Source: Bacteroidales bacterium (GTDB taxonomy: Bacteria > Bacteroidota > Bacteroidia > Bacteroidales > UBA932). Taken from it: 33,110 nucleotides of DNA. The position numbers and the translations under genes are program-made. The notes under the pieces are model-generated. The model was given only the letters and a program-made list of their open reading frames with translations, did no database searches and had not been told where the DNA came from. The DNA lies in NCBI GenBank assembly GCA_017429765.1, contig JAFROJ010000020.1:1-33110 (forward strand), given 5' to 3'. Positions 25,372-29,078 of the stretch are shown here, piece by piece (position 1 is the stretch's first letter; every line of letters begins with the position of its first letter).

Positions 25372-25556
25372 GCCAGTCCGGCGGGCGCTCCCCTACGGGG
25401 TACCACGTCGACTGGACTACTCGCGTCGGCCATGCTCGGCCGCTCGCTAACTCGGGCTTTTCAGCCCTCAGACAGACGCTCGCCTCTGGCCGGCCTGGCT
25501 CTCGCTCCCGACGTCCATTCTCCTAGGCCCCCTTCGGGGACGCCTGCCGGACTGGC
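25372..25556. repeat. 185-bp GC-rich element bounded by imperfect terminal inverted repeats
   Basis: GCCAGTCCGGCGGGCG (25372-25387) recurs inverted at 25541-25556 with 15 of 16 bases matching. Just inside both arms sits a small CCCC/GGGG hairpin (about 25389-25400 and 25528-25540). The interior is non-coding and contains further hairpins. Size, termini and the lack of an ORF recall a miniature, non-autonomous element or a dispersed structured repeat. No target-site duplication was recognised. Confidence 0.5.
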
Positions 25557-25774
25557 GGCTTATCGGCAAACCTGTAACAGGGGCTGATTATCCGTCAATT
25601 TAGTAGCTCCGAATACTGTATTCATGATTTGCTTTTCTAAATAAAAAAATTTAAATTCGCATGAGTAGCGATTATCAAACAGATTTCTGTAATTCCTTAG
25701 GCATTGTTCAACATCATGTCCCCGATTTGTTGTTTTTTCATATGGGGGGTAAGTGATTGATTATTAATATTATA

Positions 25775-25795
25775 GCAAAAGACACTCCCTTTTGC
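25775..25795. promoter_or_regulatory. GCAAAAG-N7-CTTTTGC inverted repeat upstream of the cassette
   Basis: Perfect 7-bp arms separated by 7 nt, ending 16 bp before the lipoprotein ATG. The core CAAAAG-N7-CTTTTG is the same, with the same spacing, as the palindrome between the SGNH gene and yicC (2977-2995). The location suits an operator covering the promoter or leader. No clear TAnnTTTG box was found here. Confidence 0.5.
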
Positions 25796-25811
25796 GTAAT
25801 TAAGTATTATT

Positions 25812-26792
25812 ATGACCAGAATAATCTTACTCCCCGCTATGGTTATCGTAGTCTCATCTCTTGTTTTTGTTGGATGCGGCAAATCTATTTCTGATGACCT
25901 TGACAATTCAGAGCTTGCAGAGTTCTCGAATCAACAACAATTTGAATTTACTCGTTTCATGGATTCGTTAGATTCTTTGAATCATGAGTTTGTTTCTTCT
26001 GACTTATGCGAAACTAGAGCTTGGGGTAGAGACCTTACTCAAAGTGTCGCTGATGCCGTAGGAGGGGCATTAGGGCAAAAATTTGGTTCATCAATTGGTG
26101 CCGCGGCGGGATCCGCAGGCGGCCCGGCAGGAGCCGTAGTTGGTTATTTAGTCGGGAGAAAATATGGTGGGGCTGTAGGCACTGTTGCTGCATCGACAAT
26201 TGCTGGGGCCGTATACGATTGGGTTTCAACAAAATCTGATTTGCCTTATATCGCTCAATATAAACACTACACTCAGTCTATTAATGATGAAGCTTCTATT
26301 GGCGAAGTACATAATGTGATTCTCTCCCAAATACAGTCAAACGGGAAAGCATATGTCTCTCTTGATGGTGCCGTGAAGATCGATGAAATATATGCGGATG
26401 TTGTTTCAATAGTAAATAAAATGGGAATCGAAGATTATCTCTGTGAAAACGAAGAGTACAAGGCATATATGAAGGACTTTTTCAAGGAAATAGTTGATAT
26501 TTCATTACAAGATAAGCATAGAATAACTGGAGACGTCAGTTATAAGTCTCAAGTTACTGATTTTCTATGCGAAAATAAAGGGTTTTCAGAAATTGAAGCA
26601 CAAAACATCATGTCGATAATCTCCTCGACTCAAATATCCGCATATTTACGTGAGTCACAAGCGATTGAGTATGAGAAGGAGTTTGTACGATTGGTTGACA
26701 ATTCGCGACTTTCTGATCAGAACAAGCGAATGATGATTGTCACGGGATCCATTTCCATAATGAGCACAAACTATTGGTATGCGGATAAGTAA
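25812..26792 (+). CDS. lipoprotein with glycine-zipper segment, unknown function
   Basis: Not recognised as a named family. The 326-residue protein has a lipoprotein signal (lipobox VFVGC, lipid Cys22) and an acidic stretch to about residue 65. A Gly/Ala-rich hydrophobic segment (about 79-135) follows, with repeated small-xxx-small spacing: VGGALGQKFGSSIG, AGAVVGYLVG and GGAVGTVAASTIAGAV. Such glycine zippers form packed helices in membranes and occur in bacteriocins, pore formers and some envelope proteins. Residues 140-326 are mixed alpha-helical and hydrophilic. The codon use is AT-rich, unlike the flanking genes. The stop overlaps the next gene by 14 bp. A membrane-active effector is an inference; an envelope-stress or structural lipoprotein is the main alternative. 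Confidence 0.75.
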   Translation: MTRIILLPAMVIVVSSLVFVGCGKSISDDLDNSELAEFSNQQQFEFTRFMDSLDSLNHEFVSSDLCETRAWGRDLTQSVADAVGGALGQKFGSSIGAAAGSAGGPAGAVVGYLVGRKYGGAVGTVAASTIAGAVYDWVSTKSDLPYIAQYKHYTQSINDEASIGEVHNVILSQIQSNGKAYVSLDGAVKIDEIYADVVSIVNKMGIEDYLCENEEYKAYMKDFFKEIVDISLQDKHRITGDVSYKSQVTDFLCENKGFSEIEAQNIMSIISSTQISAYLRESQAIEYEKEFVRLVDNSRLSDQNKRMMIVTGSISIMSTNYWYADK

Positions 26793-27324
26793 TAGATTTT
26801 GGGAAACCGTTATCACGCTAATGTGGTCACTCGCGATCGCGGCATTAATATACCCGGTTTGGCCGCGTCTTGTAGGCGTTGTTTTTATTTGTTTAGTTAT
26901 GGCATTGGGCATTTTCAGCTGTTGCTCAGAGAAATTATTTGCCATCCCATCCAAATTTATTCAGCGCCATATGACATTGTTTTTCAATCTCTTTATAGTG
27001 TTGATTGGAACTCTGTTATTTTTTATAGAGCATAACGAATTGCGTCTGTTTTATGCTTTTACGGCTATAAGTGGGCTATTCGGTCTCATATATTGGTTTA
27101 TTGATAAAAGATACATTAAAAAAAGCCGAGGAGAATTCATCCGCGAAGAATGTCATATTCTTCCTGCATTCATAGAGATAACCATAGCGGTTTTTTTTAT
27201 AATAGAAATCATATTTAGGAAAAGTTTTAGCGCCTCTTCACTTATCGTCATTCTTGTGTGCGTTATTGACTCTGTTTCCCAGTTTTTACAGAATAGGTCT
27301 TTAAACGGACAAACACAACAATAG
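26779..27324 (+). CDS. polytopic membrane protein, unknown function, coupled to the lipoprotein gene
   Basis: A 181-residue protein with about six hydrophobic helices (near residues 9-26, 29-48, 64-83, 89-108, 126-146 and 152-171). There is a positively charged loop, DKRYIKKSRGEF (109-120), between helices 4 and 5, and a short polar tail. No catalytic motif is visible and no family was recognised. The ATG lies inside the last codons of the lipoprotein gene in another frame (14-bp overlap), so translation is probably coupled and the two products made in a fixed ratio. It shares the low G+C of its partner. A small multi-pass protein next to a glycine-zipper protein is the usual layout of an immunity or export partner, but this is inference. 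Confidence 0.75.
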   Translation: MRISNRFWETVITLMWSLAIAALIYPVWPRLVGVVFICLVMALGIFSCCSEKLFAIPSKFIQRHMTLFFNLFIVLIGTLLFFIEHNELRLFYAFTAISGLFGLIYWFIDKRYIKKSRGEFIREECHILPAFIEITIAVFFIIEIIFRKSFSASSLIVILVCVIDSVSQFLQNRSLNGQTQQ

Positions 27325-27426
27325 ATTTCCGGAACACTCCTGGATTGTATCATGCTTCCAGACAGTGGAAACTCGTCGACAATTTGTGACGGACCATAAT
27401 CCTTGGCATACCAGTCACATACCATG

Positions 27427-27464: not shown

Positions 27465-27494
27465 TTTGATAATGGCGCTAAATCGCTGATTTTG

Positions 27495-27566
27495 AGCCAC
27501 TTGGCAGATTTGAACTCCCGACCTGCGCGTTACGAATGCGCTGCTCTACCGCTGAGCTAAAGTGGC
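27495..27566 (-). tRNA. tRNA-Thr (anticodon CGU), with two mismatched stem pairs
   Basis: A 72-nt cloverleaf without encoded CCA. The acceptor stem GCCACTT/AAGTGGC is fully paired. The D-stem is GCTC/GAGC. The anticodon loop TTCGTAA reads ACG (Thr). The T-loop is TTCAAAT. The closing pair of the anticodon stem is A-C (G at plus-strand 27529), and the middle pair of the T-stem is G-G (C at 27505). All other stem pairs are canonical. It is followed by a terminator and preceded by a -7 box, so it is probably expressed. A wobble-reading tRNA-Thr(UGU) elsewhere could make it dispensable. Confidence 0.85.
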
Positions 27567-27594
27567 TTTCTTCATTTCTCGGGGAAATGGATTA

Positions 27595-27602
27595 CAAATA
27601 TA
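27595..27602 (-). promoter_or_regulatory. -7 box of the tRNA-Thr gene
   Basis: TATATTTG on the minus strand, about 28 bp upstream of the mature tRNA 5' end. No clear -33 TTTG is seen. Confidence 0.5.
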
Positions 27603-27625
27603 ATGTTTTTTTCGGAAGTTAAGAC

Positions 27626-27633
27626 TAAATTTG
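27626..27633 (+). promoter_or_regulatory. -7 box of the flavoprotein gene
   Basis: TAAATTTG on the plus strand ends 17 bp before the ATG at 27651. It is divergent from the tRNA promoter and 23 bp away from it. No -33 TTTG at the usual distance. Confidence 0.45.
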
Positions 27634-27650
27634 CCGGAGAAACGTAAAAC

Positions 27651-29078
27651 ATGAAATCCGATATCCTCATCATAGGCGGTGGCGCGGCTGGCCTGATGGC
27701 CGCTTATGGCGCCGCCAAAGCCCTTCCGGAAGGCTCCGGGGCCGTGGTCACCGTACTCGAGAAGATGCCCCGTCCAGGCCGCAAGATCCTGTTCACGGGC
27801 AAGGGACGTTGCAACATCACCAACTTGAAGAATTGGAACGAGTTCTCCAAGCACATCCGGACCAACCCGAATTTCGTCAAGCCGGCGTTCTATAACCTGA
27901 CCCCGGAGAATATGGTTGAGTTCCTTGAGTCAAGCGGGCTGGAGACTGTGGTCGAGAGGGGAGACCGGGTTTTCCCTTATTCCCACAGGGCCTCGGATGT
28001 GCTGGACACCATCGTTGACTCTGTCATGCGGCAGGGGGTCAAGTTGTTGACAGACAGGGAGGTGGAGCTGGTCAAGGTGGGGATGGAAGGCGGTTTCGAG
28101 GTCTTTTGCTCAGGAGGGGAGGTCTTCGAGTGCCGGAGACTTGTCATCGCGACCGGCGGTCTTTCCTACCCGGTCACCGGATCGACCGGGGACGGCTATA
28201 AATGGGCCGAGTTCCTCGGACACAAGATTGTCTCCTGTTTCCCGTCGCTGACCGCGCTTGTCCCGAAAGGTTACAAGATCCAGGATGGCAGGGAGCTGGA
28301 GATAAAGGGTCATGTCAGCCGCGAGACTCCGATGACCGCCGCGGGCGAGGCCCTCAAGGGCGCCAAGTTGAAGAATGTCAGCCTGACCGTGACCTATGAC
28401 AGCGGGGTGAAGGAGACTGAGTTCGGGGATCTGGATTTCACGGACGGTGGAATAGAGGGCCCGATCGGTTTCCAGGTCAGCCGCAAATGTGTCAAGACGC
28501 TGATGAACGGCGGCCGGATAGTTTTCTCCCTGGATCTTAAACCGGGAGTCCCGCCGGAGGAGCTCGCCCAGAGGGTGAAGACCCTTTGGAGCGAGATCAA
28601 GAACGACCCGAGGACACGGGAGGCGAAGGGAGGCCGGGGGATCAACGGGAAGGAGATGTACCGGATTCTTTTGGGCAAACTCATGCCCTGGGACTTGATT
28701 CCCGGGTTCCAGGCCTGGAACCCGGAGATCCTTAAATCCTCGCTGAAGAGGAATGAATATTCAAGAAGGGGCGCTCAGGGAAGGATGTCTTACGAGGTCG
28801 ATCTGACCAGATTGGCCAAGGCGTTGAAAGACTGGAGGTTCGAGATCGTTGGATTCGTGGGGTACGAGAGGTGTGTGATCACGGCGGGAGGGGTCTCGAC
28901 GGATGAGGTGGTGGCCAAGACGATGGAGTCGAAGATCCGGAAGGGGCTTTGGTTCTGCGGCGAGATACTCGACATGGACTGCGACACCGGCGGCTACAAC
29001 CTTCAATGCGCCTTCTCCACAGGCTTTCTCGCCGGCCAGTCCGCCGCCAAATCACTGCTGGCCGCTGACGGGGAATAG
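27651..29078 (+). CDS. BaiN/HI0933-family FAD-dependent oxidoreductase
   Basis: A 475-residue cytoplasmic flavoprotein. The N-terminal dinucleotide motif IIGGGAAGLMAAYGAA (7-22) binds FAD. GRKILFTGKGRCNITN (43-58) is the family hallmark following it. A C-terminal segment, CDTGGYNLQCAFSTGFLAG, completes the FAD site. Members reduce C=C bonds in steroids (BaiN) or have unknown physiological substrates; the old name is aminoacetone oxidase-like. The length is somewhat above the usual 400-420, with the extra residues in the middle domain. Its stop codon lies within the left arm of the large inverted repeat that separates it from the convergent gene. Confidence 0.88.
   Translation: MKSDILIIGGGAAGLMAAYGAAKALPEGSGAVVTVLEKMPRPGRKILFTGKGRCNITNLKNWNEFSKHIRTNPNFVKPAFYNLTPENMVEFLESSGLETVVERGDRVFPYSHRASDVLDTIVDSVMRQGVKLLTDREVELVKVGMEGGFEVFCSGGEVFECRRLVIATGGLSYPVTGSTGDGYKWAEFLGHKIVSCFPSLTALVPKGYKIQDGRELEIKGHVSRETPMTAAGEALKGAKLKNVSLTVTYDSGVKETEFGDLDFTDGGIEGPIGFQVSRKCVKTLMNGGRIVFSLDLKPGVPPEELAQRVKTLWSEIKNDPRTREAKGGRGINGKEMYRILLGKLMPWDLIPGFQAWNPEILKSSLKRNEYSRRGAQGRMSYEVDLTRLAKALKDWRFEIVGFVGYERCVITAGGVSTDEVVAKTMESKIRKGLWFCGEILDMDCDTGGYNLQCAFSTGFLAGQSAAKSLLAADGE

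Follow-up and report, generated by a model that had tools for sequence, protein, structure and literature searches.

The DNA examined here (hereafter the window; 33,110 nt) is one whole contig, JAFROJ010000020.1, of the Bacteroidales genome assembly GCA_017429765.1, and carries an AT-rich cassette of two genes. The first gene, P0001, encodes a lipoprotein that contains a glycine zipper. The second gene, P0002, encodes a protein with six hydrophobic segments. We propose, leaning modestly to this side, that the cassette encodes a protease-released, membrane-inserting antibacterial lipoprotein together with its membrane immunity protein and that it was horizontally acquired. The proposal builds on observed features, namely the gene layout, the foreign base composition, the lipobox and zipper enrichment of P0001, its membership in a patchily distributed family and an arginine residue that this family conserves.

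The two genes overlap by 14 bp in a segment of approximately 1.75 kb with a G+C content of 0.380, as compared with a mean of 0.577 (standard deviation 0.015, minimum 0.546) for 113 overlapping, equally long blocks from outside the island. The G+C content at third codon positions is 0.35 and 0.38 in the cassette genes versus 0.75 and 0.78 in both flanking genes. Other open reading frames (ORFs) of at least 60 residues inside the segment are all antisense or nested, and none is convincing. These values bear out an earlier note on this DNA, which had described two overlapping genes of low G+C content with nothing else in the segment; the range that it gave (25585-27330) holds both genes and also includes approximately 230 bp of AT-rich DNA upstream of the ORFs.

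P0001 is a proposed precursor protein that consists of a signal peptide, a Gly/Ala-rich stretch and a C-terminal region bounded by two short motifs, G-x-x-H-N and S-x-x-x-W, which we call the scaffold. The lipoprotein with Cys22 and a 55-residue Gly/Ala stretch that the earlier note had recognized is confirmed by the FVGC lipobox and by the enrichment of zipper motifs. Residues 75-141 contain ten GxxxG pairs, where shuffled versions average 2.96 (none of 5000 shuffles reaches ten), and 23 small-xxx-small pairs, where they average 16.9 (P 0.005). In a Kyte-Doolittle scan with a 19-residue window and a threshold of 1.6, the Gly/Ala stretch stays below the threshold, which marks it as a moderately hydrophobic zipper rather than a classical transmembrane helix. 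The same scan finds six hydrophobic segments in P0002, in agreement with the roughly six membrane helices noted earlier.

Is P0001 an orphan? Neither P0001 nor P0002 rises above the curated cut-off of any Pfam or NCBIfam model, consistent with the earlier view that they belong to no named family, and no housekeeping lipoprotein family, the kinship that the note had named as refuting its reading, reaches its cut-off with P0001. PADLOC returned nothing for either protein and PHROGs nothing for P0002 at E 0.1, and the PDB holds no relative (best E 0.0075, spanning positions 1-52 only). A family of nine lipoproteins of 288-334 residues was nevertheless assembled, P0001 included. The other members come from Xylanibacter rodentium (locus L037), a Paraprevotella metagenome-assembled genome (MAG; L038), Prevotella sp. 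P5-50 (L039), a Porphyromonadaceae MAG (L040), Bacteroidales MAGs (L042 and L044), a Dysgonamonadaceae MAG (L045) and L028. A profile of these eight, with P0001 left out, matches P0001 at 58.2 bits over model positions 6-306 of 309 (E 4.3e-14 for a million sequences). By these scores, P0001 reads as a full-length member of a rare, uncatalogued Bacteroidales lipoprotein family rather than as an orphan. The family is not described in the literature searched, which comprised titles and abstract openings with few subscription journals and no bioRxiv preprints. Two weak hits in order genomes gave L002, which pairs with P0001 at a BLASTP E value of 3e-7, and L005, a broken copy.

The members share a common plan: a lipobox (9/9), an L-N pair approximately 30 residues on, an arginine, the Gly/Ala stretch and a C-terminal end with S-x-x-x-W. 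The arginine lies at residues 60-69, or 39-47 after the cysteine, in all nine members and is preceded by threonine in eight. At least two acidic residues fall within seven positions of the lipid-bearing cysteine in eight of the nine; in P0001 these are Asp28 and Asp29, six and seven residues past it. The first scaffold motif lies in S-I-G-x-x-H-N-x-I-L or a variant thereof, and 137-158 residues separate the two motifs.

The family is rare. A single-sequence search with P0001 found its own genome only among 101 relatives and no match in genome contigs, plasmids, phages or viral contigs. Plasmids likewise gave no match for P0002, L029 or L073, and viral contigs gave none for P0002 or for either of two alignments. 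Because every viral scan is seeded with short peptide patterns that must match exactly, distant relatives may escape it. Family members occur in three of 393 genomes of the order (six matches, of which those in the window's genome, G271 and a broken copy in G119 are real), a single-sequence search that may miss distant members; in three of 111 genomes of one taxonomic family (six matches; G119, G902 and G936 real); in four of 15 genomes of one genus; and in two of 188 genomes of a second order sample. Twelve of the 14 matches in this last sample were dropped, eleven because they rest on the signal peptide and one because it rests on a stretch of a kinase-like protein. The proteins at L003, L006, L014, L021, L023 and L025 were read as unrelated, and those at L004, L022, L024, L027 and L030 were dropped at less than 12 bits with the family profile. 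These counts speak against core genes of the lineage, which the earlier note had named as a refutation of its reading.

Within cassette limits set by the analyst, the G+C content is at least 8 percentage points lower than in the flanks at ten of 12 loci (exceptions, L102 and L099). The rarity, patchiness and AT-rich composition of the cassettes argue for horizontal acquisition. No mobile element was identified at the cassette, and a search for direct repeats around the island found short two-copy matches only, none of which flanks the cassette like an attachment site. In one genus, the broken G119 copy (L005) and an intact G902 copy (L103) may occupy the same place, with similar flanking ORFs.

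How would such a lipoprotein act? We infer that it is displayed at the surface, is cleaved, inserts into a membrane and kills, and that the producer is immune. The P0001 precursor would be lipid-anchored, probably on the outer surface, given that acidic residues after the cysteine resemble the surface export signal of Bacteroidetes (PMC5080379). A C11-type protease at the surface would then cut after the conserved Arg69 and release a mature fragment with the glycine zipper first and the scaffold of approximately 150 residues last. The zipper would insert into the envelope of a competitor and damage it, and the six-helix P0002 would shield the producer. The genome of the window encodes one C11 peptidase above the Pfam cut-off, which is itself a lipoprotein by its lipobox.

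A close parallel for the cleavage step is BcpT of Phocaeicola, a lipoprotein toxin whose activation needs a C11 protease cut after L-T-R (PMC9308784). BcpT is likewise a Bacteroidales lipoprotein precursor with Thr-Arg approximately 45-50 residues into the mature protein; it is activated by C11 proteases, and its small immunity gene, BcpI, lies just downstream (PMC9308784). The conserved T-R of the family is likened to the first BcpT cut because its place and type are alike, and P0001 combines, as BcpT does, a lipoprotein signal for signal peptidase II with a T-R motif, its cleavage being predicted. The two differ in that BcpT has 499 residues and two cut sites whereas P0001 has 326 residues and one proposed site, and in that BcpI is a 57-residue lipoprotein and not a multi-helix protein like P0002 (PMC9308784). 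P0001 was likened to BcpT by description; the plasmid records searched hold no match for P0001, the inclusion of pBCPT among them being unconfirmed. Fab1 with RFab1 of Bacteroides fragilis offers a second parallel as a patchily distributed, secreted antibacterial protoxin that has an immunity gene downstream and is activated when fragipain cuts after an arginine; by description, it differs in its size of 50 kDa and its cut after R200 (PMC8406203). SitA and SitI of myxobacteria, also compared by description, share the principle that lipoprotein toxins are polymorphic, vary at their C-terminal ends and have immunity genes downstream, but SitA carries C-terminal nuclease domains in the described cases and is delivered by outer-membrane exchange (PMC5562445).

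In its presumed action, the pair would resemble a bacteriocin that carries a glycine zipper and is countered by a membrane immunity protein. A Gly/Ala-rich membrane-inserting stretch with GxxxG pairs and small membrane immunity proteins are also features of class IIb bacteriocins and microcin V; these bacteriocins, unlike P0001, are short peptides with double-glycine leaders. P0001 scores 11.8 bits against the microcin V model (PF17508), under its cut-off of 27. The parallel that the earlier note drew with Cdz of Caulobacter, a glycine-zipper toxin of the cell surface with the membrane immunity protein CdzI of three predicted helices (PMC5380434), goes no further than the zipper and the membrane partner. 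CdzC and CdzD have 86 and 84 residues and an RTX-like signal, as opposed to the 326 residues and lipobox of P0001, and the Cdz cluster includes type I secretion genes, unlike the two neighbours of the window cassette (PMC5380434). By size, secretion signal and neighbours, the cassette is not a Cdz system.

A membrane partner next to the lipoprotein is common in the family but not universal. The lipoprotein genes of L037 and L038 are followed by genes for small membrane proteins with several helices (116 and 112 residues, respectively); these partners are 31% identical to each other, and their lipoproteins are 54% identical. L028 is followed 10 nt downstream by a 55-residue ORF, a two-helix hairpin by eye and one segment by the scan. 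At L039, L040, L042, L044 and L045, a gene for a secreted protein (171-216 residues; beta-barrel-like by eye) comes next, and multi-helix ORFs of 138 and 171 residues lie farther downstream at L042 and L044. At L042 (6022-6485), short ORFs with tandem-repeat-like peptides separate the gene for the barrel-like protein from the membrane gene downstream. Overall, the next gene is small with at least two helices in seven of 18 relatives versus five of 61 other ORFs (P 0.004), a count that includes L079 and L082, which have a zipper and neither scaffold motif and are dropped in the stricter count. Stricter counts give 6/17 (P 0.011), 6/16 (P 0.008) and 5/15 (P 0.022); L078, which has S-x-x-x-W only, is kept in both partner counts.

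The C-terminal scaffold extends the comparison beyond Bacteroidales. When 218 genomes of the phylum were searched with a profile of the C-terminal 75 residues, L073 emerged from another order; L074 and L075 were read as unrelated. L073 encodes a 285-residue lipoprotein with G-N-M-H-N, S-F-K-Y-W 144 residues on and then a C-terminal glycine zipper, and three small multi-helix ORFs come after it. With L073 as the query, 137 genomes yielded six further genomes. L077, L080 and L081 have a scaffold spacing of 126-137, with the zipper after the scaffold in L077 and L080 and not in L081; the resemblance of L079 and L082 may come from composition rather than descent. L081 (genome G1128) lies beside a recombinase fragment and genes of the mobile-element type, as read by eye. 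A scaffold profile of L073, L077, L080 and L081 scores L045 at 25.9 bits and L028 at 19.1 bits, as compared with 7.4 bits for the best of 360 shuffled sequences and 9.0 bits for the best unrelated ORF.

A weaker basis for the proposal is provided by genome G454, in which two tandem ORFs match the last 55 or so residues of the family profile. These ORFs are 90% identical over 242 residues, after which their C-termini are unrelated. Within 13 nt downstream of each lies a three-helix ORF, and these two neighbours are likewise unrelated. Such a layout resembles, as read from the sequence, the way in which polymorphic toxins and their cognate immunity genes are arranged. No signal peptide was seen by eye in either ORF, and the window carries a single copy, unlike the tandem pair. 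The earlier suggestion of an antagonism pair gains partial support: relatives with a constant front and a variable end stand in tandem beside small membrane proteins, but a membrane partner follows in 7/18 relatives only.

A wider reading can be entertained tentatively, and we hold it to be rather less than an even prospect. The scaffold from G-x-x-H-N to S-x-x-x-W may be a class-wide carrier for antibacterial toxins, and the window pair may belong to an as yet undescribed system of polymorphic lipoprotein toxins. The zipper would be a pore module placed before the scaffold in Bacteroidales, where a C11 protease unlocks it, or after the scaffold in other orders, or would be replaced by other C-terminal modules, and each toxin would have its own small membrane immunity protein.

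Several results weigh against the antibacterial interpretation and its extension. The next gene encodes a barrel-like secreted protein, by eye, in five of the nine Bacteroidales loci, and a next gene with at least two helices is found in three of nine Bacteroidales members taken alone (P 0.06). P0002 has no convincing relative in the libraries or genomes searched. Its own genome aside, the 393 order genomes gave ten weak partial matches to it (best E 4.2e-4). Nine of these fall in frames that differ from P0002 in size or in number of helices: eight frames span 267-987 residues, and that of L014, with 184 residues, is CvpA-type by eye. At L008 the match region has no open frame. The scaffold motif pair is present at none of these ten loci, and P0002 does not resemble the partner protein of L037, the only partner compared. 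L039, L042 and L044 have one GxxxG pair each, so the zipper is not strictly conserved. The other-order profile scores P0001 at 8.9 bits, just under the unrelated ORF at 9.0, and in the reverse direction the Bacteroidales scaffold profile scores L077, L073, L081 and L080 at 21.2, 15.8, 14.5 and 11.1 bits; two unrelated ORFs score 13.3 and 11.3 bits with it. The link to other orders is supported for the family as a whole and is weak for P0001 and L080. The four other-order scaffold proteins have no T-R at the equivalent place, which would confine the cleavage step to Bacteroidales. For the G454 ORFs, the E values at selection were 0.003-0.004 per genome in a set of 395 genomes, a level that should yield about one match by chance, and their later profile scores (23.2 and 22.9 bits without the window protein in the profile, 25.5 and 24.8 with it) are therefore not independent of that selection. 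An empty site was not demonstrated in a comparison of 18 loci and genome G017. Finally, the proposal offers no route for P0001 to the inner membrane of the target.

The strongest alternative, which we regard as unlikely yet worth weighing, is that P0001 has a non-toxic role as a surface lipoprotein, for instance in envelope sensing, in signalling or in the binding of nutrients, and that its dedicated membrane partner differs from lineage to lineage. The barrel-like next genes fit such a role, as do the DUF3244 protein upstream in L029/L037 (35.1 bits, cut-off 25) and the large regulator-like ORFs and small secreted proteins that recur by eye near several members (L037:3713-5949, L038, L040 and L044). 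However, neither patchy AT-rich cassettes nor tandem constant/variable copies with unrelated three-helix neighbours, as in G454, would be expected of a housekeeping function. It is improbable that P0001 is an outer-membrane lipoprotein with a structural glycine zipper, like Rick_17kDa or YiaD, and that its position next to an unrelated membrane protein is fortuitous: its matches to Rick_17kDa_Anti (PF05433; 7.5 bits) and YiaD (9.7 bits) are far under the cut-offs of 24.2 and 175 bits, the family has a conserved scaffold of its own, and the cassette genes overlap and share their composition. A phage-derived or superinfection-exclusion gene is very improbable, since the 15 PHROGs families that match P0001 at E 0.1 or below (phrog_16692, of unknown function, E 6.8e-10 over residues 72-290; a tail-associated lysin, 7.2e-8; tape-measure proteins) recall phage tail proteins with 14 matches over the zipper, centred on the Gly/Ala stretch, so that composition is their likely cause, whereas the phage records and viral contigs scanned gave no relative, the island holds just two genes and all nine Bacteroidales members have a lipobox.

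The features of the cassette are listed below.

Table 1. Positions of the cassette, its proposed elements and the adjacent tRNA gene in the window
Feature	Position	Strand	Remark
AT-rich island with cassette	25585..27330		G+C 0.380 vs 0.577
P0001 lipoprotein gene, 326 aa, proposed bacteriocin-like precursor	25812..26792	+	
Signal peptide and lipobox FVGC, Cys22	25812..25877	+	hydrophobic segment 4-22
Arg69 in CETR|AW, putative C11-type protease site	26016..26018	+	Arg conserved at residues 60-69
Glycine zipper, residues 79-133	26046..26210	+	29/55 Gly/Ala
G-x-x-H-N, residues 164-168, shared scaffold start	26301..26315	+	9/9 Bacteroidales members, 4/9 wider set
S-x-x-x-W, residues 318-322, shared scaffold end	26763..26777	+	invariant S and W columns
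P0002, 181 aa, six hydrophobic segments, putative membrane immunity protein	26779..27324	+	
tRNA-Thr (CGT), borders island, 3' end towards cassette, outside pair	27494..27566	-	

The genes that neighbour the cassette encode, by eye, an LtaS-like sulfatase and a flavin adenine dinucleotide (FAD)-dependent oxidoreductase. The tRNA-Thr gene lies approximately 170 bp downstream of the cassette, and a tRNA-Thr (CGT) gene is found near the FAD-dependent oxidoreductase gene in seven of 18 loci, including the window (27494-29078), with varying position and strand. Insertion at tRNA-Thr could not be shown because in G017, the closest relative by the FAD gene, a different gene (a serine hydrolase by eye) adjoins the tRNA on its other side. 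Between the sulfatase gene and the island, positions 25372-25556 are GC-rich and possibly an interspersed repeat, with inverted arms of 29 nt that are 127 nt apart and 79% complementary. The Bacteroidetes promoter motif has two exact matches in the window, none close to the cassette, and scans for sigma-70-like promoters and terminators gave results near chance level.

To our knowledge, few antibacterial proteins of Bacteroidales have been characterized. BcpT (PMC9308784) and Fab1 (PMC8406203) came from transposon or loss-of-function screens. A recognizable scaffold with exchangeable modules would allow more antibacterial proteins to be read from genomes. It would also join surface lipoproteins, toxin-activating C11 proteases and glycine-zipper membrane insertion, which are now seen apart, and it makes testable whether one cut at a conserved arginine turns a lipoprotein into a membrane-active protein.
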